Assembly: GCF_027706725.1 (NCBI RefSeq)
Contig: NZ_JAQFWQ010000004.1
Location: 1 to 64,000 of the forward strand
Source: Nocardiopsis endophytica
Lineage (GTDB): Bacteria; Actinomycetota; Actinomycetes; Streptosporangiales; Streptosporangiaceae
DNA: 64,000 nucleotides
Direction of reading: 5' to 3'
This document shows positions 9,321 to 21,002 of the stretch, piece after piece. Position numbers and translations under genes: made by a program. How positions within the stretch are numbered: the first letter of the stretch is position 1; each line of letters opens with the position of its first letter. The notes beneath the pieces were generated by a model. That model was not told the DNA's origin and searched no databases. It saw only the letters and a program-made list of their open reading frames with translations.

Positions 9321-9554
9321 ATGGGTTCCATCATCGTTCGCGGCCTCGATGAGTCGGTCAAGCGGCAGCTCGCCGCGCAGGCGAAGGAGCACGGGCGCTC
9401 CATGGAGGCAGAGGTCCGAGACATCCTCACGAAGGCTGCACGCAGGCCGCACATCGGCTTGGCGCTCTTGCAGGCTGCGCAGGATGTGGGAGGTGTCGAG
9501 GACCTTCCGGTTCCGGAGCGGAGCGACGTTGCGCGAGCGGTGGACTTCGAGTGA
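9321..9554 (+). CDS. vapB: VapB/FitA-type RHH antitoxin
   Basis: Antitoxin of a type II toxin-antitoxin pair, 77 aa. The N-terminal ribbon-helix-helix reads GSIIVRGLDESVKRQLAAQA and continues to KEHGRSMEAEVRDILTKAA, as in the FitA/Arc-like group, and binds the operator. The C-terminal tail (about residues 45-77) should wrap the toxin and block its active site. Its stop overlaps the toxin start by 4 bp (GTGA), giving translational coupling. The module sits beside a truncated gene. Confidence 0.9.
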   Translation: MGSIIVRGLDESVKRQLAAQAKEHGRSMEAEVRDILTKAARRPHIGLALLQAAQDVGGVEDLPVPERSDVARAVDFE

Positions 9555-9976
9555 TCGTCCTCGACACCAACGTCATTTCAGAGATCTTCCGGCCGCAGCC
9601 CGACGCGGGCGTCGTCGCGTGGCTCGAGTCGCTTACTGGTGACGTCGCCATCACCGCCGTGACACTCGGGGAGCTGCTGGCCGGGGCGCGCCGCCTCCCT
9701 GATGGCAGGCGCAAGAAGGCGCTGACTACGCGAATCGAGGTCGCGCTCGAGCCTTACCGGGACAGTCGTTCCGTGCTGTCGTTCGATGACGCGGCCGCCG
9801 AGCGCTACGCGGACATCCTCGTCGCGCGGAAGGCGGCCGGATCGCCGATCAGCACACCCGATGCGCAGATCGCGGCGATCTGCCTGGTGCACAACGCCAC
9901 GTGCGCGACTCGGAATACCAAGGACTTCGCACACACCGGTGTCGAACTGCTCGATCCGTGGGAACAGCGGCTGTGA
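9551..9976 (+). CDS. vapC: VapC-type PIN-domain ribonuclease toxin
   Basis: Mg-dependent endoribonuclease toxin of the PIN fold, 141 aa with GTG start. The acidic residues of the active site are visible: Asp5 in VLDTNVISE, Glu41 in TLGELLAGARRL, Asp104 in STPDAQIAAI, and Asp125 in TKDF. Family members cleave tRNA or rRNA when the antitoxin is degraded; the target of this one is unknown. The sequence is closest in style to FitB-like VapCs. It is encoded directly after its antitoxin in a two-gene operon. Confidence 0.92.
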   Translation: MIVLDTNVISEIFRPQPDAGVVAWLESLTGDVAITAVTLGELLAGARRLPDGRRKKALTTRIEVALEPYRDSRSVLSFDDAAAERYADILVARKAAGSPISTPDAQIAAICLVHNATCATRNTKDFAHTGVELLDPWEQRL

Positions 9977-10050: not shown

Positions 10051-10839
10051 TTACCTCGCCGCCTTGCTCGGTACTCGTCCCGGGGTGAAGCCGATCTCCG
10101 GGCGGCCCGTCTCGGGGTTGGTCCTGACCGTGGCGTTGACCTCGTAGACCTCCGCGATCAGCTCCGGCGTCAGGACGTCGGCCGGTGCGCCTCCGGCGAC
10201 GGCTCGGCCCTCCTTGAGGACGAGGACGGAGTCGCAGAACATCGCCGCCAGGTTCAGGTCGTGGAGGGCCACCACCGTCGTGACCGGCAGTTCGGCCACG
10301 AGCTGGAGCAGGTCCAACTGGTAGCGGATGTCCAGGTGGTTCGTCGGCTCGTCCAGAAGGAGCTCCCTGGGCTCCTGTGCCAGCGCGCGGGCGATGTGGA
10401 CGCGCTGGCGTTCTCCTCCCGACAGGCGGTGCCACAGCTCGTCGGCCTTGTCGGTGAGACCGGTCCTCGCGAGCGCGTCGGAGACGGCCCGGGCATCGGC
10501 CCGCCTGTCGCCGCCGAACGTGCCGCGGTGGGGGATGCGGCCGAGGGCCACGATGTCGCGGACCGTGATGTCCACGACGGTGTCGGCGTGCTGCGTCACG
10601 GTGGCGATCGCTCGCGCCGCGTCCTTCCGGGACAGCTCCGCCAGCGACGCGTCGTCCAGCGTGACCGCCCCGGACGTGGGCCGCACCGACCCCGACAGCA
10701 GCCTGATGAGGGAGGACTTGCCCGAACCGTTGGGGCCGAGCAGCCCGACCGTCTCCCCGGCCCGCGGCTCCAGGGTCACCCCGTCGACGACGAGCCGGCC
10801 GCCGCGGTTCCAGCCGACCTCCCGGGTCCGCAGAGTCAC
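10051..10839 (-). CDS. Iron-siderophore ABC transporter ATP-binding protein
   Basis: Cytoplasmic ATPase of a FepC/FhuC-type importer, 262 aa. Walker A GPNGSGKS (35-42), Q-loop near TQHADTVVD, ABC signature LSGGERQ (139-145), Walker B LLLDEPTNHLD (160-170) and a switch His in ALHDLNLA are all intact. The GTG start has AGGAGG just upstream. It is the third gene of the operon with the permease (31 bp upstream) and binding protein, and powers uptake of ferric siderophore or haem-type ligands. Confidence 0.92.
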   Translation of the reverse strand: MTLRTREVGWNRGGRLVVDGVTLEPRAGETVGLLGPNGSGKSSLIRLLSGSVRPTSGAVTLDDASLAELSRKDAARAIATVTQHADTVVDITVRDIVALGRIPHRGTFGGDRRADARAVSDALARTGLTDKADELWHRLSGGERQRVHIARALAQEPRELLLDEPTNHLDIRYQLDLLQLVAELPVTTVVALHDLNLAAMFCDSVLVLKEGRAVAGGAPADVLTPELIAEVYEVNATVRTNPETGRPEIGFTPGRVPSKAAR

Positions 10840-10870
10840 ACCGGCCTCCTCTTCAGTCGGAACCCAGGGG

Positions 10871-11971
10871 TCACAGCGGCCTCCTCCGGCGGAACATGAT
10901 GGCGATGAACACCGGGACGCCGACCAGCGCGGTCCCCACCCCGACGGGCAGCGGCGAGGGGGAGAAGGCGACGCGCGCCGCCGCGTCCACCCACACCATG
11001 AAGACGGCCCCGACCAGCGCCGTCACCGGGACCAGGCGGGAGTGCACCGGCCCGGTCAGGAACCGTGCGGCGTGCGGCAGCACCAGGCCGACGAACCCGA
11101 TCGCCCCGGCCACGCTCACCATCGTCGCCGTGAGCAGCGCGGTCACGGTCATCAGGCCGATCCTGGCCCGCCGCACCGACACCCCCAGCGAGGAGGCGAC
11201 CTCGTCACCGAACGCGAACGCGTCCAGCACCGGCGCCCGCAGCAGGCAGAAGACCACACCGGCGAGCACGACGGCACCGCACAGGGCCACATCGTCCCAC
11301 CGCACCCCTTCGAGGGAGCCCAGCAGCCAGAACATCACCCCGCGCGCCTCGTCCGAATCGGCGAAGGCGAAGATGACGAACGAGGTCAGCGCGGAGAACA
11401 GCTGCGTCACCGCGATCCCCGCCAGGATGACCTTGTCATTGGTGCCGCCCGCCAGGCGTGAGATCAGCAGCACCACGGCGAACGCCGCGACCGAGCCGGC
11501 GAACGCTCCGCCGGACACCCCCAGCGCGAACCCGCCGACGCCCACGATCCCCACCAGGACCGCTCCGGTCGAGGCGCCCGAGGAGATCCCGAGGACATAG
11601 GGGTCGGCGAGCGGGTTGCGCAGCAGCGACTGCAGGATCACACCGCACAGTCCCAGACCGGCCCCGCACGCCGCGGCCACCAGCGCCCGGGGCAGGCGGT
11701 CGTCCCACACGATGGCGTCCTCGGAGACCCGCACCGGGATGTCGGTGAACCCCAGGTGGTTGAGAACGATGTCGCGCACGTTGACCAGGGAGACGTCCGC
11801 CGGCCCCAGGGTGATCGCCACCCCGATCGACGCCACGAGCAGTGCCAGCGCCCCCGTGCCCACGCCGAGGAACCGCAGGGACGAGCCCCCGGTGGGTCCG
11901 GCCGACGGCGCCGGGGCGGACGCGGTCCGCGACCCGGCGGGCGACCCGTCGGGCGGAGCGTCGAGCGTCAC
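10871..11971 (-). CDS. FecCD-family iron-siderophore permease
   Basis: Polytopic membrane subunit of an ABC importer of the FecCD/BtuC family, 366 aa with about nine or ten hydrophobic helices. Diagnostic stretches are PRALVAAACGAGLGLCGVIL, QSLLRNPLADPYVLGISSGA and GFVGLVLPHAARFLTGPVHS, the last containing the ATPase-coupling region. The N-terminal 35 residues are a Pro/Ala/Ser-rich cytoplasmic extension. The GTG start overlaps the stop of the binding-protein gene by 4 bp. A single permease gene is present, so it must work as a homodimer. Confidence 0.93.
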   Translation of the reverse strand: MTLDAPPDGSPAGSRTASAPAPSAGPTGGSSLRFLGVGTGALALLVASIGVAITLGPADVSLVNVRDIVLNHLGFTDIPVRVSEDAIVWDDRLPRALVAAACGAGLGLCGVILQSLLRNPLADPYVLGISSGASTGAVLVGIVGVGGFALGVSGGAFAGSVAAFAVVLLISRLAGGTNDKVILAGIAVTQLFSALTSFVIFAFADSDEARGVMFWLLGSLEGVRWDDVALCGAVVLAGVVFCLLRAPVLDAFAFGDEVASSLGVSVRRARIGLMTVTALLTATMVSVAGAIGFVGLVLPHAARFLTGPVHSRLVPVTALVGAVFMVWVDAAARVAFSPSPLPVGVGTALVGVPVFIAIMFRRRRPL

Positions 11972-13008
11972 CGCGCCTCCTCGACGGAGGCGAGTCCTTC
12001 GCTGAGGGCCTCCAGCCCGTCGACGGTCCGGATCGAGGGGTTCATCTCGGCCCCGTGCAGGGCGATGAACCGCTCCTCCTCGACCGCGTCCATGTCCTTG
12101 GTGAGGGGGTCGCTCTCCAGGAAGTCGATCTTCTCCTGGAGCTTGTCGCCCGGCGCCCGCTCACGGCTGAGGTCTCCGAGCACGATCACGTCGGGGTCCC
12201 GGTCGACGAAGGCCTCCCACGTCGTGGCCGGCCAGTCGTCCTCCTCGTCGGCGAACACGTTCTCGGCGCCGACCTCGTCGGCCAGCAGGTTCGCCGACCC
12301 CCGCCCGCCCGCGACGTAGGGCGTCTTCAGGTCCGCGAACCAGAAGGCGATGGTGACGTCGGAGGCGTCGACGCCCTCCAGGGCCGCTCGGCGCCGCTGT
12401 TCGAGCTCGTCCACCAGGTCCTCGCCCCTGCTGGGGACGTCGAAGATCTCGGCCAGCTCGCGGATCTCCTGGTACAGCGAATCGAGGGTGAGCGGGGCGG
12501 TCCGGGTGCCGCCGCCGTTGATGCTCGTGCCGCCGTCGCAGTCGGTGGGGGAGAGGTAGGTCGGGATGCCGGTCTCCTCGAAGCGGCTCCGCTCGGCCAC
12601 CCCTCCCTGGGCGAAGTGGCGCCCGAACGAGGCCGTCACCAGGTCGGGGTCGGTGTCCAGGGCCACCTCCCACGAGGGCGCCTCGTCCGCCAGCCGGGGG
12701 ACCTCCTCGTTGGCCTCGGCGAGGTTCTCCCGCACCGGGTCGGTCCACGACGCGGTGCCGACCATGCGGTCCTCCAGCCCCAGCGACAGGAGGATCTCCG
12801 TGGACCCCTGGTCGAGGGAGACGGCCCGCTGGGGCGCGTGCTCGATCGTCACCTCCCGGCCGCAGTTCTCCACGACCAGGGGGTACTCGGTCGCGCCCTC
12901 CCCGGCGGCGGCCTTTTGCTCCGGAACGGGTTCGGACTCCCCGCAGCCGGCCGTGGCCAGCAGGAGGAGGACGGACGCCCCGACGGCGAGAGATGCGCGT
13001 ACCACCAT
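11968..13008 (-). CDS. Iron-siderophore ABC transporter substrate-binding lipoprotein
   Basis: Extracytoplasmic solute-binding protein of the FecB/FepB type, 346 aa. A lipoprotein signal peptide ends in LLLATAGC with the lipidated Cys at about residue 22. The mature part has the two-lobe pattern: QRAVSLDQGSTEILLSLGLE in lobe one and a long connecting helix LDSLYQEIRELAEIFDVPSR. A GTG two codons upstream (13014) is an alternative start. It is first in a three-gene uptake operon controlled, by position, by the iron-box-like site at 13070-13090. The ligand (siderophore type) cannot be told. Confidence 0.9.
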   Translation of the reverse strand: MVVRASLAVGASVLLLLATAGCGESEPVPEQKAAAGEGATEYPLVVENCGREVTIEHAPQRAVSLDQGSTEILLSLGLEDRMVGTASWTDPVRENLAEANEEVPRLADEAPSWEVALDTDPDLVTASFGRHFAQGGVAERSRFEETGIPTYLSPTDCDGGTSINGGGTRTAPLTLDSLYQEIRELAEIFDVPSRGEDLVDELEQRRRAALEGVDASDVTIAFWFADLKTPYVAGGRGSANLLADEVGAENVFADEEDDWPATTWEAFVDRDPDVIVLGDLSRERAPGDKLQEKIDFLESDPLTKDMDAVEEERFIALHGAEMNPSIRTVDGLEALSEGLASVEEAR

Positions 13009-13069
13009 GACCACCGCTCAACAGATCCGGTTCGGGACCATGCGCCCGAAATGCCCACTACGGCGATGG

Positions 13070-13283: not shown

Positions 13284-13559
13284 CTACTGCTCCACGGGCT
13301 CTCCCGACAGGTCGGAGATGATCCGCAGGGCCCTGCATGATGGGCCCGCGCTCACCGAACCGTCCCTCAGGTCGAACACCGAGTGGTGCAGCGGGCACCG
13401 CACCTTCAGCACCGTGCCGTCCACGTGGCCGAACCGCAGCAGGCCGCCCCTATGCGGGCAGTGCGCCTCGGCCAGCAGCCTGCGGCCCCCTGCCTCGATC
13501 AGCACCATGTCCTCGGTGACGGGGCGTACGGACGCCTTGGACGCCTCGCCGCCGCTCAT
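13284..13559 (-). CDS. Rieske [2Fe-2S] ferredoxin-like protein
   Basis: Small soluble Rieske protein, 91 aa. Cluster ligands are complete: C34-P-H36 in EAHCPHRGG and C55-P-L-H58 in VRCPLHHSVFDL. It is the last of five overlapping genes (ATGA overlap with the diiron oxygenase gene). Probable role: electron delivery to the heme-oxygenase-like diiron enzyme encoded just before it, or to another oxygenase of the pathway. By position it may correspond to RohT of the azomycin cluster, as I remember that cluster, but I am not sure of the correspondence. Confidence 0.85.
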   Translation of the reverse strand: MSGGEASKASVRPVTEDMVLIEAGGRRLLAEAHCPHRGGLLRFGHVDGTVLKVRCPLHHSVFDLRDGSVSAGPSCRALRIISDLSGEPVEQ

Positions 13560-14512
13560 GACGGCGCTCCTGTCGCCTGCGCCGCACCCGACGGGCCCGC
13601 CGCCCGCGCGCGCTCCACGGCGGCCTCGAAGGCCGCCCCGGCGACCGCGCCGGTCAGCTCCACGCCCGCCCAGACCTTGGCCGTGTCCAGGCCACGCTCG
13701 GTGTCCAGCGACTTGAGCGCCGCCCGCATCTGCCGGCTGTGGTAGCCGTCGATGTACAGGTGCTCCGTGTAGTACGCGTGCTCCGACAGCCCCAGCCGCT
13801 CGGCCGCCCGCCGGTAGCACTGGAACGCGTACAGCACGCTCGACTCGAAGTAGGCGTACCCGCCGAGGAAGTACTCCGGCTCCGGCGCCCGCGACGCCAG
13901 CCAGTGGAACAGGTTGACGTAGGCCAGCGACTCCGGCGCCGCCCTGCGCACGTAGTACTCCAGGTCCAGCGTCATCCCGACCCCGGTCAGCAGGTCCCGG
14001 TACAGCCGCGAGTGCGCCTTCTCCTCGCTTCCGCACCCCAGCTCGTCGATGAGCACCCGGAACACCGCCAGCCCCGACGCGAACGGCAGCCGCGCCACGA
14101 CCGGCAGCAGCGTCTCGGACTCGGTCAGCCCGTCCACCGCGAACTCGGACGCGATCACCTTGAGCTGCTCCAGGCTCGCCTCCTCGGCCACGAAGCGCGC
14201 GGCCTCGTCCTCCGCCGCCTCCTCGGCCGCCAACCGTCCGCGCAGCGCGCGCAGCAGCGCCGCCCGGTCCGGCAGGTCCGGCGCCCCGGCCTCGAACCGC
14301 GCCGCCATCGGCCCGATCCACCGCTCCTCCAGCGCCAGCGTCTCCGCGTACTCCACGGCCGTGGGCACCGTCCTGTACAGGCGGTACAGCCGCAGCTGGT
14401 CGCTGTCGGCCGCCCTCGCGCGCGCCATGGCGGTGTCGGGCGCGAGCGGCATCCCCCTCGGTGCCCCGCCGGGTGTCCCGCTCGGCATCCCCGACGCCGT
14501 GCTCGTCGTCAT
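13556..14512 (-). CDS. rohS: Heme-oxygenase-like diiron N-oxygenase (RohS-like)
   Basis: Probable HDO-superfamily (iron-containing redox enzyme) protein, 318 aa from the ATG at 14512 behind GGAGGAC. Candidate metal ligands follow the HDO order: Glu157 in VLIDELGCG, His167 in EKAHSRLY, Glu223 in YFESS, then Glu250/His251 in YYTEHLY and D255-x-x-H258 in IDGYHSRQM. Relatives such as SznF and RohS oxidise amine nitrogens. With the arginine-type PLP enzyme and aldolase upstream, the expected reaction is oxidation of 2-aminoimidazole to 2-nitroimidazole. The family and neighbours are seen; the exact substrate is inferred. Ribosomal coupling by 4-bp overlaps on both sides. Confidence 0.8.
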   Translation of the reverse strand: MTTSTASGMPSGTPGGAPRGMPLAPDTAMARARAADSDQLRLYRLYRTVPTAVEYAETLALEERWIGPMAARFEAGAPDLPDRAALLRALRGRLAAEEAAEDEAARFVAEEASLEQLKVIASEFAVDGLTESETLLPVVARLPFASGLAVFRVLIDELGCGSEEKAHSRLYRDLLTGVGMTLDLEYYVRRAAPESLAYVNLFHWLASRAPEPEYFLGGYAYFESSVLYAFQCYRRAAERLGLSEHAYYTEHLYIDGYHSRQMRAALKSLDTERGLDTAKVWAGVELTGAVAGAAFEAAVERARAAGPSGAAQATGAPS

Positions 14513-15327
14513 GATCCGTCCTCCTGTCCACCTGGGGGCGCGCATTCGTCCTCGATCACGCCCCTGCGCGCGAGCTCCCGTTTCACGCGCAGGTACCAGT
14601 CGTCGCGGAACAGCCCGAACAGTTCGCACACCGCGTCCACGATCCGCTGCAGCGGCTCACCGGGGTCGGCCAGGAGCGCGTTGCACATCCCCGGTTCGAG
14701 GTTGGCCAGCGGCCCGACCAGCCCGTCCACGCCGGGCGTCGACGCCACCTTGTCCTCCCACCCCTGCAGCACCGGGACCCCCGTCCCGGCCGCCGCCAGC
14801 GCGCGCGTCAGCTCGGGGACACCGCTGGACTCCTTGACGGCGGCGATCCCGGGCAGGCCGCAGATCCGCAGCAGCGTCACCAGCGACGCCCGGTTCCGCG
14901 ACACCGGCTCCTCGTTGTAGACGACGATCGGCAGCCGGGTGCCGCCGCGCAGCGCCCGGTAGTGCGCCACCATCTCGTCCTGCCCGACGCCCGCCCCGAA
15001 CGGCGTGGTGGCGGCGACCATGTCCGCCCCCAGCGCTTCGGCCGTGCGGGCCCGGTGCAGCACGGAGGGCGTGTCGGCCGCCTGCACCCCCGCGATCACC
15101 GGGAGCCCGTGCGAGTGCGCGACGGTGAAGGCCACCATGTCGCTCCACTGCTGGTCGGTGAGGCGCCACCCCTCGCCCGAACTGAGCACCGGCATCAGCG
15201 CCGACACGTCCGCGTGCACGTACTCGATGAGGGAGGCCGTGCTCTTCTCCGAGACGCGGCCGTGCTCGTCGTAGGGGGTGATGAGCGGGACCACGGTCCC
15301 AGAGATTCCAGAGATCCCGGAGGTCAC
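14509..15327 (-). CDS. rohR: DapA-type (DHDPS family) aldolase, RohR-like
   Basis: TIM-barrel pyruvate-dependent class I aldolase, 272 aa, GTG start overlapping the upstream stop by 4 bp. The Schiff-base Lys165 is in GIAAVKESSG and the acid/base Tyr137 in VVYNEEP. The usual GTTGE pyruvate loop reads LSSGEG, a common change in the wider family. In the azomycin route the homologue RohR splits 4-hydroxy-2-ketoarginine by retro-aldol reaction into pyruvate and guanidinoacetaldehyde, which fits this operon. It is not needed for lysine synthesis in this context. Assignment beyond the family rests on gene order. Confidence 0.8.
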   Translation of the reverse strand: MTSGISGISGTVVPLITPYDEHGRVSEKSTASLIEYVHADVSALMPVLSSGEGWRLTDQQWSDMVAFTVAHSHGLPVIAGVQAADTPSVLHRARTAEALGADMVAATTPFGAGVGQDEMVAHYRALRGGTRLPIVVYNEEPVSRNRASLVTLLRICGLPGIAAVKESSGVPELTRALAAAGTGVPVLQGWEDKVASTPGVDGLVGPLANLEPGMCNALLADPGEPLQRIVDAVCELFGLFRDDWYLRVKRELARRGVIEDECAPPGGQEDGS

Positions 15328-15827
15328 AGCTCGTCCCTCCCCACGCGCAGCGCGAGCGAGATGCGGTAGAACGGCTCCAGCCCGCCCGGGAACCGGGGCT
15401 CGTCCCCGAGCGCCTCCGCGGGCTCCACCGGCAGGCCGGGCCGCGCCAGCAGCCGCGCCGACGCGGTGTGCAGGGTGCCGCCGCGCTCCATCACCTGGCC
15501 CAGCAGCAGCCGTTCGTGGTCGGGCAGCCCGTCCAGGGCCGGGTCCTCCCATGCGCGCCGGGTGTCCTTCTCCGCGTACCCGGTCCGGTCGATGCGCAGG
15601 TCGGTGTGGAGCCGGTCCATGAAGGGGTAGTAGGCGTCCTGCTCGCCCCTGGGGCGCCTCCACACCAGGGCGTCGCACAGGCCCACCTGCTCCAGACTCA
15701 TGTGCACCGGCGCCGTGGGCCGCCCCAGCGCGCGGGCGAAGAACGCCTTGCACCCGCGGCGCACGCGCTCGTCCTCGTGGTGCATCCCCATGAAGAGCGC
15801 GGCGTCCACGAACACCTCACCGCTCAT
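15324..15827 (-). CDS. PIN-like uncharacterised protein of the nitroimidazole-type operon
   Basis: A 167-aa soluble protein with no strong family match known to me. The start FVDAALFMGMHHEDERVRRG looks like a PIN-fold first strand and helix (V-D-x-x-x-x-x-x-x-H-x-x-D), and SLEQVG near residue 45 could be the second acidic site, but the full acidic set of a nuclease is not apparent. It overlaps the PLP-enzyme gene by 11 bp and the aldolase gene by 4 bp, so it is part of the pathway unit. By elimination it may be the cyclising/dehydrating enzyme forming 2-aminoimidazole (the role of RohQ); this is inference only. Confidence 0.65.
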   Translation of the reverse strand: MSGEVFVDAALFMGMHHEDERVRRGCKAFFARALGRPTAPVHMSLEQVGLCDALVWRRPRGEQDAYYPFMDRLHTDLRIDRTGYAEKDTRRAWEDPALDGLPDHERLLLGQVMERGGTLHTASARLLARPGLPVEPAEALGDEPRFPGGLEPFYRISLALRVGRDEL

Positions 15828-17043
15828 GGCGCATCAGCACCTTCCGCATGCGGTCCATGGCCAGGCGGAACATCTCCGGCTCCCGGGCCAGCGCCACCCG
15901 GACGAACCGCTCACCGCGCTCGGGGGCGCTCCAGTAGAAGTAGGTGCCGGGCAGCACGTACACCTCGTCGGCCAGCAGCTCCTCCTGCAGCCGCGACGCG
16001 GTCAGGTGCCCGGGGCGGATGCGGAACCAGGCGACGCTGGTCTCCACCATCGGCTCCTGGTACTCCAGCACCGGCCCGTGCAGGGCGTTGCGCGCCGTGG
16101 CGGCGTTCTCCCGCACGATCCGCCGCACCGACCCCATGCCGTCCTCGATGGAGTCCTCCACGTACCGTGCGACCACGTTGAGGACGAACGGCGAGACGTT
16201 CAGCAGCACGCTGGTGTGCAGGTCGTAGATCTCCCTCTGGAGGGAGCCGCCGGCGGTGAGCAGCGCGCACTTGGCGTCCTGCAGCGGCCACGTCTTGCCG
16301 GTGTCCTCGATGGCCAGGTAGTCGATGCCGGACTCCTCCAGCAGCGCGTACACGTCCGCCCGGGTGCCCTCGGCCGCCAGGGCGAACGAGGCGAAGCAGA
16401 AGTCGAGGACGAGCAGCCGCCCGTGGTCGGCGCAGAACCGCACCACCTCGCGCAGCCCCTCCATGCCGCCGGAGGCCAGGGTGAACCCGGTCGGGTTGTT
16501 CGGGTCGACCAGGTAGACGGCGTCGGCGGTGCATTCCTCGGCCAGCCGGTCGTAGGCCCGCGCCGGGTCGGCCAGCGACTCCTCGGGCAGGGCCTCAAGG
16601 GGGACCTGCATGTTGCGCAGCAGGTCGGTCAGGTTGTCGAAGCAGGGCTCCACGAGCGCCACGGACATCCCGTGCCGCCGCAGGTACATGGCGGCCACCA
16701 TGGTGGACACGCTGGCCGAGTACGACAGCAGCGCCCGGTCCATGCGCAGCGCCGTGGGCTGGCGGTGCAGCCGGAAGAAGGCCGACCGCAGCCGGTCCTC
16801 GAAGTAGGCCTGCGTGTGGTCCTCGGACTCGTGCCACAGCTCGGTGAGCCGGGCGACGATCTTCTCCTGCTCGGGCGACTGCCTCTGGTGGGTGTGCGCG
16901 TCCGCCAGGTTGTAGCGGGTCTTCAGCGCCTTGATCTCGTGCTGGGTCAGGTCGGTCGCACCCCGCCCTGCGGGGTCTCCCGCATTCTGCCGCGGGTTCA
17001 GAAAAGTGGACACGATGTCGTCGGTGATTCCGGCCTCGGTCAC
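15817..17043 (-). CDS. rohP: PLP-dependent arginine oxidase/hydroxylase (MppP/RohP type)
   Basis: Fold-type I aminotransferase-like protein, 408 aa, resembling MppP of the enduracididine pathway and RohP of the azomycin pathway, which use PLP and O2 to convert L-arginine to 4-hydroxy-2-ketoarginine. Shared features: N-terminal ALKTRYNLADAHTHQRQSP, SYSASVSTM, VEPCFDNLTDLLR, DPNNPTG (180-186) and IEDTGKTWP with the probable PLP Lys250. Ordinary transaminases differ in the N-terminal segment. It is first gene of the five-gene unit, GTG start with weak AAAGG. An N-terminal extension of about 30 residues precedes the conserved part. Confidence 0.82.
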   Translation of the reverse strand: MTEAGITDDIVSTFLNPRQNAGDPAGRGATDLTQHEIKALKTRYNLADAHTHQRQSPEQEKIVARLTELWHESEDHTQAYFEDRLRSAFFRLHRQPTALRMDRALLSYSASVSTMVAAMYLRRHGMSVALVEPCFDNLTDLLRNMQVPLEALPEESLADPARAYDRLAEECTADAVYLVDPNNPTGFTLASGGMEGLREVVRFCADHGRLLVLDFCFASFALAAEGTRADVYALLEESGIDYLAIEDTGKTWPLQDAKCALLTAGGSLQREIYDLHTSVLLNVSPFVLNVVARYVEDSIEDGMGSVRRIVRENAATARNALHGPVLEYQEPMVETSVAWFRIRPGHLTASRLQEELLADEVYVLPGTYFYWSAPERGERFVRVALAREPEMFRLAMDRMRKVLMRHER

Positions 17044-17481
17044 GTCTTCGCGCCTTTCTCGATTTCAGGGGGCGAGCACGGGTGATTCGATGCGGACATC
17101 CGTGATCACCTGCTCGAACGCCTTGAAGTCTATGAAGGCGGACGGCGCTTGAGGGGGTGTCGGCCTGACCTGAAACGGACGCCGGAGGTGCCCTGCGGAA
17201 TGGCGGCGGCGCCGGTACACTCCCCGCCTTCCCCGCCAATGCGAAGATGAATGCGACGCATTTCCGTGTCCACTTCACATATGAATGGGGAAAACGGTGC
17301 GGAGGGGTCCGGAGGGCGGTGTTTCGGCGATTGGGAAAGTGGCCCCGGTCACGTCCGGATCATGGGGGCCCGGACACCCGGTCGGCCCTGCCGGGCCCGT
17401 GGCAGGAACCGGCAACCCGGCCGATGACCCGACCGGTGACCCGATCGTCGGCCCGGCCCCAGGCGCGTGCGCCGCACACGA
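17044..17481. other. Promoter region of the nitroimidazole-type operon; no gene seen
   Basis: No frame here has a credible start and codon pattern. The part at 17230-17340 is locally less GC-rich and holds a perfect 11-bp palindrome, ATGCGACGCAT, at 17251-17261, a possible operator. The promoter of the five-gene operon must lie in this stretch. Confidence 0.5.
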
Positions 17482-17520
17482 CGAGCCCGCCGGAGCCTTC
17501 CCAGGGCTCCGGCGGGCTCG
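17482..17520. terminator. Strong stem-loop, 16-bp stem
   Basis: CGAGCCCGCCGGAGCC (17482-17497) pairs perfectly with GGCTCCGGCGGGCTCG (17505-17520) over a 7-base loop. It lies beyond the 3' end of the DsbA-like gene on the minus strand and would stop transcription entering the nitroimidazole-type operon promoter region. Confidence 0.75.
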
Positions 17521-17531
17521 CGATGCGCGTC

Positions 17532-17593
17532 GATGATCTCGGGAGAACGGACGCTACAACCGCGCCGGTAGCGTCGTTCCCCCCGAGATCAAC
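17532..17593. repeat. 62-bp palindromic element, copy 1
   Basis: Begins GATGATCTCGGG and ends CCCGAGATCAAC. Inside, GGACGCTAC and GTAGCGTCG form the inner stem around a CGCGCC core. It has the same length and tips as the elements at 17623, 28397 and 29651, so these form one family. Confidence 0.85.
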
Positions 17594-17622
17594 GGGGGGC
17601 GGTGGTGCGGGGGTGCGCTGTT

Positions 17623-17684
17623 GTTGATCTCGGGGAAGCTGGGGTTATCGTGTCCGGTTTAACCCCGAGTTACCCGAGATCAAC
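17623..17684. repeat. 62-bp palindromic element, copy 2
   Basis: GTTGATCTCGGG and CCCGAGATCAAC tips with a different inner stem (GGGGTTA / TAACCCC), a compensated change. The TGA stop codon of the DsbA-like gene (minus strand, 17680-17682) lies inside the right tip, so the element abuts and defines the 3' end of that gene. Confidence 0.88.
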
Positions 17685-18372
17685 GAGGGTCGGCGGCGGC
17701 GCGGCGGACGATGGCGTCGTACACCGACGGGTCGTCGGAGGAGACCACGGGCCAGCCGACGCCGTAGTCCCCGGCCCATCCCACCTCGATGCCGGGATTG
17801 GCCACGTCCCCGCCGTCGGCGAAGAACAGGTGCGGGCTGCAGTCCACCCTGTCGGTGGCGGCCGTCTCCGCCTGGTCCGACAAGGTGCGCCGGGCCCGCC
17901 CGTCGTCCAGCGCCTCGGCGATGTGCGCCGCGTCCACGCCCGCCGCCTTGGCGCACTCCAGGATCACCGTGCGGTCGCCCACGCACCGCGACTCCGCCCA
18001 GAAGGCCTTGCGCAGCGCCAGGTCCAACCGCTCAGAGGCGTCGAGCCCCTGCGCCTTGGCGGCCTGCACCGCCTCCAGGGCGGGCAGCGTGGTCGTCGGG
18101 TACAGCCAGTCGGGCGACTGCCAGAGCTGCCACCCGGCGCCGGGCTCCATCGAGGCCATGCGCCCCACCTCGCTGTCGGTCCCCGAACGCGGGCTGGGGC
18201 CCTTGTTCAGCAGCTCCAGAGGGAAGGCGCGGTGGTCGAACCGCACCTGATCATCGAGCCGCGCGCGCGTGCGCGCCTCGTGCAGCCGGTGCACGGCGAT
18301 GTGGGCGAAGGAGCACCAGATGTCGCTGTAGACGACGATCGTCCCCGGCGCCACGTCGATCGGGTCCTGCAT
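17680..18372 (-). CDS. DsbA-like thioredoxin-fold protein (FrnE/HCCA-isomerase type)
   Basis: Cytoplasmic thioredoxin-fold protein of the DsbA/FrnE family, 230 aa from the ATG at 18372 (AAGGGA upstream; a start 12 codons earlier is less well supported). The first strand and active-site region read IVVYSDIWCSFAHIAVHRL: one Cys where DsbA has CxxC, which argues against disulfide exchange and for an isomerase, glutathione/mycothiol-dependent or structural role. The cis-Pro loop is near DCSPHLFFADG. The helical insert spans about 60-190. It is probably co-transcribed with nothing; the terminator and palindromes follow it. Confidence 0.8.
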   Translation of the reverse strand: MQDPIDVAPGTIVVYSDIWCSFAHIAVHRLHEARTRARLDDQVRFDHRAFPLELLNKGPSPRSGTDSEVGRMASMEPGAGWQLWQSPDWLYPTTTLPALEAVQAAKAQGLDASERLDLALRKAFWAESRCVGDRTVILECAKAAGVDAAHIAEALDDGRARRTLSDQAETAATDRVDCSPHLFFADGGDVANPGIEVGWAGDYGVGWPVVSSDDPSVYDAIVRRAAADPR

Positions 18373-18486
18373 GGGTCCATGTCCCTTCGGTCGTTCACAT
18401 ACGGTCACTCGGGTGGTGGCCGGTGACTCGGGTGGCCGCTCGGACGGCCTCTCAGGCGGCTCCTCAGACGGCCACTCAGGCGTCGC

Positions 18487-19269
18487 TCAGGGCGTTCCGG
18501 CGTCGAGCGCGCCCTCCAGGTCGGCTTCGGGCAGCCAGGGCGGCAGCAGGGGCAGTTCGGCCATGGCCGCGAACAACCGGTCCAGCTCCCCCTCCATCGG
18601 CGGGGCGTGGGCGCTCAGCATCCGTCGCGGGCGCAGCCCCCGCAGCCCCGCGACGGCGGTCTCGAACCGCTTCTGGTCGACCATCGCCGTCCACGGGGCG
18701 ATGGCCCGGTTGAGGACCGAGAAGCCGGAGAAGAAGCACTCCTCGCCGTGGTCGAACGGGTGCTCGGCGGGCCCCGGCAGCACGCTGCCGAAGCTGTCCG
18801 AGGCGAACAGCGACCCCGTGGCCGAGTCGAGCACCGCGAGCGTCCCCGGGGAGTCGAACACCGGAGGCCGGTGGAACGACAGCACCCGGTCGGCGGTCTC
18901 CAGCCGTCCGCCCGGGTTGGCGGTGACGACCCGCCCCTCGGGCAGGGCGAACTCCTCGGTCAGCCGCACCGCCGACACCGGGCTGGTCACCAGCCGGGCC
19001 CGTGGCGCGGCCCGCAGGATGCGCATCAGCGCCCCGGTGTGGTCGCGGTCGTCGTGCGTGACGACCACCCACCGCAGGTCGTCGGGGTCCACGTGGGTCC
19101 ACAGCATCGCCTCGAAGGCGACCGCGTCCACCGGCATGCCGGAGTCGACGAGCACCGGCTCGCGCCCGGCGGCCAGGTAGCCGTTGACCGGCTGCAGCCC
19201 CAGGTCGGGTATGGGCAGGTCGGAGGGCAGGGTGGTGATCCCCGGCCCGGCGCGGTAGGGCTCGCGCAT
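18487..19269 (-). CDS. Metallo-beta-lactamase-fold protein (ODP-like)
   Basis: MBL-fold metalloprotein, 260 aa. Metal motif H72-x-D74-x-D76-H77 in VVVTHDDRDHTG replaces the usual HxHxDH and resembles the HxExDH of oxygen-binding diiron (flavodiiron-type) proteins. SDSFGS and SAHAPP supply the later Asp and His. No flavodoxin domain follows, so it is a stand-alone ODP-like protein, perhaps an oxygen- or NO-handling or sensing protein. The ATG at 19269 is followed directly by REPYRAG; the gene lies 14 bp downstream of the transporter gene in the same direction, suggesting one operon. Confidence 0.8.
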   Translation of the reverse strand: MREPYRAGPGITTLPSDLPIPDLGLQPVNGYLAAGREPVLVDSGMPVDAVAFEAMLWTHVDPDDLRWVVVTHDDRDHTGALMRILRAAPRARLVTSPVSAVRLTEEFALPEGRVVTANPGGRLETADRVLSFHRPPVFDSPGTLAVLDSATGSLFASDSFGSVLPGPAEHPFDHGEECFFSGFSVLNRAIAPWTAMVDQKRFETAVAGLRGLRPRRMLSAHAPPMEGELDRLFAAMAELPLLPPWLPEADLEGALDAGTP

Positions 19270-19283
19270 GGGTCCTCATCCCC

Positions 19284-20261
19284 TCACAGCAACTGGATGG
19301 CGAGCGCACCGGCGGCGAGCAGGGCCAGGCCCCCGGCGCGCGGCGGCGTCACGGGCCGCTTCGGCAGGCGGAACAGCCCGTACTGGTCGACGGCGGCCGA
19401 GGTGAGCTGCAGCCCGGTGACGGTGAGCGCCACGGTCACGGCGGCCCCGATCTGCGGGATCAGCAGGAAGGTGCCGGTGACGTAGCCCGCCGCGCAGGCC
19501 CCGCCCAGCCACCCCCACCACGGCATGTGCCGCAGGGGAGCGAACCGCGGCCGCGGGGTGCGCCCGGTCGCCAGCAGCACCGCCAGCACCGCGGCGATGG
19601 CGAGCGTGGCCACCGTGAAGCTGACGACGGCCACCGCCAGCGGCTCGACGAGGGTGCCGCGCAGCAGCGCGTTCACCGCCCCCTGCACCGGGAGCACCGC
19701 GCCCGCCGCCAGGCCCAGGACGACCCACCCGGCGAGCGAGGGCGGCCGCCCGTCGCCGCCCGGAGGGGCCTTGACCGCCACGGCCCCGCCGCCGGAGGGG
19801 GCGGGCGCCGCCGCCCGCGTCTGGGACCGCACCACGAGGGTGATGCCGGCCAGCACCGCCACCGCTCCGGCCGCGGTCCCGACCGACAGGGGGCGCTGCT
19901 CGACCCCGAGCGCCCCCAGCAGGTCCAGCGCCACCGACGCGAGCATCTGCCCGGACACGAACAGGCCCACCGTGGTCACCGCCCCGAGGCGGGGGATCAG
20001 CAGGATCCCGCTGGTGATGTAGAAGGGGCTGGCCAACCCGCCCAGCAGGTGCCACCAGGGGGCCTCGGGCACCTGCCCGAGCGCGCCGAGCGACCCGGTG
20101 GCCAGGCCGAGGGCCAGCAGCAGCCCGGTGGCCACGCACAGCTGGACGGTCGAGGCGCCGTAGGGCGTGCCCACGGCCTTGTTGAGCTGGAGGTTCACCG
20201 ACGCCTGGACCGCGAGCAGGCACCCGATCAGCAGGGCGGCGGCGAGCAGTGCGATGTGCAT
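19284..20261 (-). CDS. DMT-family transporter, fused YdcZ (DUF606) repeats
   Basis: Inner-membrane protein, 325 aa, about ten TM helices made of two homologous halves: LLIGCLLAVQASVNLQLNKA with SGILLIPRLGA in the first, PVQGAVNALLRGTLVEPLAV with TGTFLLIPQIGA in the second. YdcZ proteins are usually about 150 aa and act in pairs; here both halves are in one chain joined by a Pro/Gly-rich linker. The ATG at 20261 follows GGGAGAGG. It is divergent from a TetR gene with twin operators, so an efflux role induced by a ligand is likely. Substrate unknown. Confidence 0.82.
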   Translation of the reverse strand: MHIALLAAALLIGCLLAVQASVNLQLNKAVGTPYGASTVQLCVATGLLLALGLATGSLGALGQVPEAPWWHLLGGLASPFYITSGILLIPRLGAVTTVGLFVSGQMLASVALDLLGALGVEQRPLSVGTAAGAVAVLAGITLVVRSQTRAAAPAPSGGGAVAVKAPPGGDGRPPSLAGWVVLGLAAGAVLPVQGAVNALLRGTLVEPLAVAVVSFTVATLAIAAVLAVLLATGRTPRPRFAPLRHMPWWGWLGGACAAGYVTGTFLLIPQIGAAVTVALTVTGLQLTSAAVDQYGLFRLPKRPVTPPRAGGLALLAAGALAIQLL

Positions 20262-20280
20262 GGTCCTCTCCCGGTCAAAT

Positions 20281-20334
20281 GGACATGCTGTCCGCTTGGA
20301 GTCTCCATCATGCATTCAAGCGGACACGGTGTCC
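20281..20334. promoter_or_regulatory. Twin TetR operators
   Basis: Two near-identical palindromes, GGACATGCTGTCC (20281-20293) and GGACACGGTGTCC (20322-20334), each GGACA-N3-TGTCC, spaced 41 bp centre to centre (about four helical turns). They lie between the divergent transporter and tetR starts and should bind the TetR encoded at 20367. Confidence 0.8.
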
Positions 20335-20366
20335 ACATATTCCGTCGAACCCGTTAGCATCGGGGC

Positions 20367-21002
20367 ATGGAGAACGGAGCCGGACACCCCGAGGGCCTGC
20401 TGCTCGACGAACCGTCCGTGGGTGCGCCCGCCGGGCGCCGCCCCCGCGCCGACGCCGCTCGCAACCGCGCGCAGATCCTGGCCGCCGCCCGCCGCCTGTT
20501 CGCCGAGAAGGACCCGCGGGCCGTCACCATGGGCGACATCGCCAGTGCTGCCGGGGTCGGCCGCGCCACCCTCTACCGGCGCTTCCCCGACACCGCCTCG
20601 GTGGCCGTCGCGCTCCTGGACGAGCACGAGCGCGAACTGCAGGGCGCGATGATGACCGGCCCCCCGCCCCTGGGCCCCGGCGCGCCCCCCGACGAGCGCC
20701 TGGCGGCCTTCTACGCCGCCATGGTCGACCTCCTCGACCGCCACCTGCCGCTGCTGCTGGGGGCCGAGACCGGCGAGCGGCGCTACACCACCGGCGCCTA
20801 CGCCTTCTGGCGCGCGCACCTGCGCGTGCTCCTGCGCGCGGCCGGGGCCCCCGACCCCGAGGCGCTCGTCGAGCCGCTGCTGGCCCCGCTCGCCCCCGAG
20901 GCCTTCGCCCACCAGCGCGACCGGGCCGGGCTGCCCCCCGAGCGCATCGCCGCCGCCCTGGCGTGGAGCGCGCGCCGGCTCCTCGGCGGACAAGTCCGCT
21001 GA
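20367..21002 (+). CDS. TetR-family regulator of the YdcZ-type transporter
   Basis: Repressor of 211 aa. Helix-turn-helix: RAQILAAARRLFAEKDPRAV followed by TMGDIASAAGVGRATLYRRF, typical TetR_N at about residues 32-75. The C-terminal ligand domain is Ala/Leu-rich. Divergent from the YdcZ-like gene and MBL gene, and flanked by two copies of GGACA-N3-TGTCC, so regulation of that operon and itself is very likely. Inducer unknown. Confidence 0.88.
   Translation: MENGAGHPEGLLLDEPSVGAPAGRRPRADAARNRAQILAAARRLFAEKDPRAVTMGDIASAAGVGRATLYRRFPDTASVAVALLDEHERELQGAMMTGPPPLGPGAPPDERLAAFYAAMVDLLDRHLPLLLGAETGERRYTTGAYAFWRAHLRVLLRAAGAPDPEALVEPLLAPLAPEAFAHQRDRAGLPPERIAAALAWSARRLLGGQVR

Follow-up and report, generated by a model that had tools for sequence, protein, structure and literature searches.

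The nitroimidazoles in clinical use have a natural parent compound, azomycin (2-nitroimidazole). In the related systems described so far, arginine is converted into 2-aminoimidazole by RohP, RohR and RohQ, and azomycin is then formed by RohS (PMC10724926). The rohPQRST cluster is already known from Streptomyces eurocidicus ATCC 27428 and, as a five-gene operon flanked by luxRI genes, from Pseudomonas sp. DF41 and CMR5c; DF41 no longer makes azomycin when the operon is deleted (PMC12713392). Two P. syringae strains that carry the cluster give no detectable azomycin in culture (PMC12713392), so a strain that has the cluster need not produce the compound. In the literature on the cluster we found no demonstrated role for rohT, and a literature search for azomycin self-resistance genes returned nothing on point.

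The window, a stretch of 64,000 nucleotides from Nocardiopsis endophytica, contains a further case of this cluster, with the expected catalytic residues intact. Five minus-strand ORFs at 13284-17043 overlap successively by 11, 4, 4 and 4 bp and follow the P-Q-R-S-T order described for rohPQRST (PMC12713392). From P to T, the proteins belong to the Pfam families Aminotran_1_2, DUF6190, DHDPS, Haem_oxygenas_2 and Rieske (Table 1). The initial annotation had described five mutually overlapping genes (by 4-11 bp) as an operon, named their families, and read order and families together as an azomycin pathway. The ORF coordinates, the Pfam assignments of all five proteins and the published gene order (PMC12713392) agree with it, as do the steps it gave for RohP, RohR, RohQ and RohS with the published ones (PMC10724926).

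The genome (7.26 Mb) encodes one RohP. Its congeners Nocardiopsis chromatogenes YIM 90109 and N. suaedae LSu2-4 have all five genes in identical order, at 84-100% identity, which excludes a chance arrangement. In alignments of 51-55 homologues, V178 of RohS, usually a leucine, is the one residue that departs from a column with 95% conservation or more. Set against the two S. eurocidicus clusters (loci L044 and L068), which agree in gene content and order, the proteins of N. endophytica are 38-61% identical, protein by protein; the likeness to the two Pseudomonas operons is one of gene content. Taken whole, the evidence leaves us highly confident that this operon is best explained as rohPQRST, an azomycin cluster.

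Table 1 Features of the N. endophytica roh locus (positions in the window) and related archaeal operons (positions in their own loci).
Feature	Position	Strand	Product or size	Remarks
rohT	13284..13559	-	91 aa	small Rieske [2Fe-2S] protein; probable RohS electron donor (inferred)
rohS	13556..14512	-	318 aa	haem-oxygenase-like diiron N-oxygenase
rohR	14509..15327	-	272 aa	DapA-family retro-aldolase
rohQ	15324..15827	-	167 aa	cyclodehydratase, DUF6190, PIN fold
rohP	15817..17043	-	408 aa, GTG start	PLP- and O2-dependent arginine oxidase
DsbA-like gene	17680..18408	-		Pfam DSBA; true start perhaps codon 13; probable accessory gene
Metallo-beta-lactamase-fold gene	18487..19269	-		Pfam ODP and Lactamase_B; PDB FprA; probable accessory gene
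YdcZ-type DMT exporter gene	19284..20315	-		Pfam DMT_YdcZ
Palindrome 1	20277..20297	.	AAATGGACATGCTGTCCGCTT	probable TetR operator; conserved in module-bearing relatives
Palindrome 2	20318..20338	.	AAGCGGACACGGTGTCCACAT	probable TetR operator; conserved in module-bearing relatives
TetR-family regulator gene	20367..21002	+		Pfam TetR_N; divergent
Archaeal operons	L056:4134-8264; L086:5938-10120; L087:5776-9879			70-89% identity to L056

The best solved relative of RohP is PDB entry 6c3a (491 bits; 58.2% identity over 383 aa), titled 'uncharacterized protein' in the PDB, which we take to be S. cattleya RohP. Both proteins have the conserved lysine and the N-terminal DLTQHE stretch; in N. endophytica this lysine, K250 in EDTGKTWP, is kept, as are the 133 other columns with at least 95% conservation among homologues. 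The PLP-dependent arginine hydroxylase MppP (PDB 5dj1) resembles RohP in enzyme superfamily, substrate and use of O2, and RohP does match the NCBIfam MppP equivalog TIGR04462 with 173.7 bits, as would be expected if the operon served an arginine pathway of the MppP/enduracididine type instead of azomycin. This match lies far below the model's cut-off of 450, however; the MppP structures score about 200 bits (202 for 5dj1, at 36.7% identity), and the partner proteins are RohQ and RohS. We rejected the enduracididine-type pathway on these scores and find it scarcely credible. One feature does count against azomycin: in the RohP tree, N. endophytica joins two Nocardiopsis (100/100) on a branch that differs from the one grouping 6c3a with S. 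eurocidicus L044.

RohQ matches Pfam PF19689 (DUF6190) with 210.8 bits. In the PDB it matches two entries named 'Cyclodehydratase RohQ', 9c5w and 9oq8 (E 4e-29), at 36-38% identity. Its AlphaFold model (pLDDT 90.8) superposes on the 9c5w crystal structure with a Z-score of 23.1 over 157 residues, and the differences are those of ordinary sequence divergence. VapC/PIN nucleases reach Z-scores up to 12.8, over 124 residues and at about 11% identity. The protein that had been noted as a PIN-like unknown is RohQ, and its model bears out the PIN fold. A nuclease function is not expected, since the best match is the cyclodehydratase; as modelled, RohQ is a PIN fold put to ring closure. Residues D8 and E46 are shared by at least 95% of 55 RohQ sequences. 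The window holds another PIN-domain gene at 9551-9976 (Pfam PIN), likely encoding a VapC-type toxin functionally unrelated to RohQ.

RohR is of the DHDPS family, yet its score falls far under the dapA cut-off. None of its best PDB matches is named RohR; it is 50% identical to the RohR of S. eurocidicus locus L044. Residues K165 and Y137, presumably the Schiff-base lysine and the tyrosine of the DHDPS-family active site, are invariant in 55 sequences. For RohS, the best solved relative is 9pfx, 'PbrRohS', with 175 bits against 49 for SznF. Residues E131, E157, H167, H251, D255 and H258 are kept and invariant among homologues; they align with E189, E215, H225, H311, D315 and H318 of SznF, which we take to be its diiron ligands. 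The Rieske ligands of RohT, namely C34, H36, C55 and H58, are all present. Altogether, among solved structures it is RohP, RohQ and RohS themselves that come closest, not MppP, SznF or plain DapA proteins.

From these sequence comparisons we infer that N. endophytica carries out the published Roh steps and that the product of the cluster is azomycin, made from arginine. RohP would convert L-arginine and O2 into 4-hydroxy-2-ketoarginine. Retro-aldol cleavage of this intermediate by RohR would release pyruvate and guanidinoacetaldehyde, the latter being cyclised and dehydrated by RohQ to 2-aminoimidazole. RohS would then turn the amine of 2-aminoimidazole into the nitro group of azomycin, with electrons probably handed over by RohT, as the family and position of that protein suggest.

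We scanned one genome per species, 84,980 species in all, with the RohQ alignment and obtained 54 loci. At 50 of these, including S. eurocidicus ATCC 27428, P, Q, R, S and T stand in order; the exceptions are L051 (Kitasatospora), L056 (an archaeon, Q-R only), L060 (a contig end) and L066, where rohT was not found at the locus. Six of the 395 genomes sampled from the class have RohQ, each with the full cluster. On plasmids, represented by PLSDB, there is no RohQ. An empty-site comparison with congeners devoid of roh gave no clean boundary, orthologues of the near neighbours being absent there too. Both S. eurocidicus ATCC 27428 (L044/L068) and S. albireticuli (L048/L067) bear two complete roh clusters, located on different contigs and in two branches of the RohP tree.

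The locus of Kitasatospora sp. GAS204B (L051:4137-7346) has rohP, rohQ and rohR, with rohS and rohT absent nearby; it may encode a pathway to 2-aminoimidazole only. The existence of this P-Q-R locus, and a published screen of RohS homologues in which one was inactive (no azomycin) and one gave a trace (PMC10724926), would be in line with 2-aminoimidazole as the main product in N. endophytica, azomycin staying minor if RohS works poorly or the product is diverted. But RohS and RohT are intact in N. endophytica, with all predicted metal ligands, and are conserved in both congeners. We hold 2-aminoimidazole to be a very improbable main product here, and keep azomycin as the preferred one.

The functional locus probably extends past 17043, up to about 21000, with a module of four genes coding for a TetR regulator, a YdcZ-type exporter, a metallo-beta-lactamase-fold (MBL) protein and a DsbA-like protein. 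The MBL-fold protein is nearest to flavodiiron-type (ODP) domains, and its THDDRDH motif is invariant. The DsbA-like proteins lack CxxC and have a single cysteine there, within a CSFA motif, which makes ordinary disulfide exchange unlikely. The exporter, MBL and DsbA-like genes lie on the same strand upstream of roh in 27 of the 54 loci, whose hosts are Streptomyces, Kitasatospora, Microbispora, Nocardia, Saccharothrix and others. A TetR homologue, mostly at the equivalent place, occurs at 30 loci, and a DsbA-like homologue is found near roh at 40, in opposite orientation in 12 of them. In this respect the closest described systems differ from N. endophytica: S. eurocidicus L044 is devoid of all four genes, L068 has only the DsbA-like one, in opposite orientation, and the Pseudomonas operons have their luxRI genes in place of the TetR module. 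Siderophore-type ABC genes at 10051-13014 were considered as part of the cluster and rejected: their orthologues stand beside roh in only two of the 54 loci, those of two congeners.

With a threshold of 67% identity, seven of the 395 class genomes contain a DsbA-like homologue, and all six roh carriers are among them (Fisher p about 1e-12, uncorrected for kinship, the threshold having been set with the data in view). The remaining genome, from the Microbispora genus group, has TetR, YdcZ exporter and DsbA-like genes in a row (L099:7264-9807), without MBL, RohQ or other roh genes. That this roh-less locus keeps the three genes fits self-protection. More distant DsbA-like homologues (41-54%) in the roh-less genomes examined do not adjoin TetR or exporter genes. 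Judging by its gene neighbourhood, the most likely role of the module is to control export and to shield the producer. It could be supposed instead that the pathway ends in a modified nitroimidazole and that the MBL-fold or DsbA-like protein tailors azomycin rather than protecting the cell, considering that both genes accompany roh in the 27 loci. The module is missing from many clusters, however, and its TetR, exporter and DsbA-like genes persist in the roh-less Microbispora-group genome, as protection predicts; tailoring is thus a very remote prospect, and protection the preferred role.

The two palindromes of Table 1 are 41 bp apart. Across loci, the sequence between the TetR and exporter genes holds the 21-bp consensus AAGTGGACAnnnTGTCCRCTT, often paired at this same 41-bp distance. 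These palindromes recur in loci with the module and occur in none without it; a control on 657 kb of mononucleotide-shuffled sequence gave two matches. As a looser scan of the whole window yields many partial matches, we claim only the two palindromes, which are conserved between species. Their position makes an exporter start at 20261, below them, more likely. A sigma-70 scan returned one weak promoter-like site near 20335, and the terminator scan alongside it found none. Upstream of rohP, at 17044-17679, the sequence CATATGTGAAGTGGACACGGAAATGCG is conserved in three Nocardiopsis and holds half a TetR palindrome; a near-repeat, GTTGATCTCGGG, is present in N. endophytica and not seen in its congeners.

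A different arrangement exists in archaea. RohQ occurs in four of the 371 genomes sampled from the phylum of L056, whose host is a Woesearchaeota MAG. Three of them share an operon of radical SAM, RohQ, RohR and ELFV/ScyB-like amino acid dehydrogenase genes, with a divergent TrmB-like gene; RohP, RohS and RohT are absent from all three operons. Since the operon recurs in three genomes with archaeal neighbours, contamination is disfavoured. The radical SAM protein is like the archaeosine enzyme RaSEA (181 bits to TIGR01210, under that model's cut-off of 212). The archaeal RohQ and RohR keep 30 of 33 and 29 of 32, respectively, of the columns that are conserved among the bacterial proteins; a literature search for archaeal RohR returned nothing on point. 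As a guess, the dehydrogenase and the radical SAM enzyme could replace the O2-dependent RohP on the way to 2-aminoimidazole. The pairing of RohQ and RohR without RohP suggests that the part of the pathway leading to 2-aminoimidazole may also run without an O2-dependent first enzyme. The fourth archaeal genome (L088:4896-7882) has RohQ, with no RohR nearby and a TrmB-like gene close; by eye, its RohQ neighbours a haem-oxygenase-like (HDO/TENA-type) protein.

NnhA is an azomycin-degrading nitrohydrolase of the arginine deiminase/DDAH-type superfamily. Five Microbispora roh loci share, as judged by eye, an arginine deiminase/DDAH-like protein (e.g. L018:11377-12243). For the TetR/YdcZ/MBL/DsbA-like module we put forward, tentatively and as somewhat less than an even prospect, that it senses azomycin or 2-aminoimidazole, exports it, disarms reactive reduction products and can travel without the biosynthesis genes. 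If this is true, the module would confer resistance by another route than the nitrohydrolase NnhA or the loss of nitroreductase. The accessory genes and the palindromes are specific candidates for the means by which producers detect azomycin and survive it.
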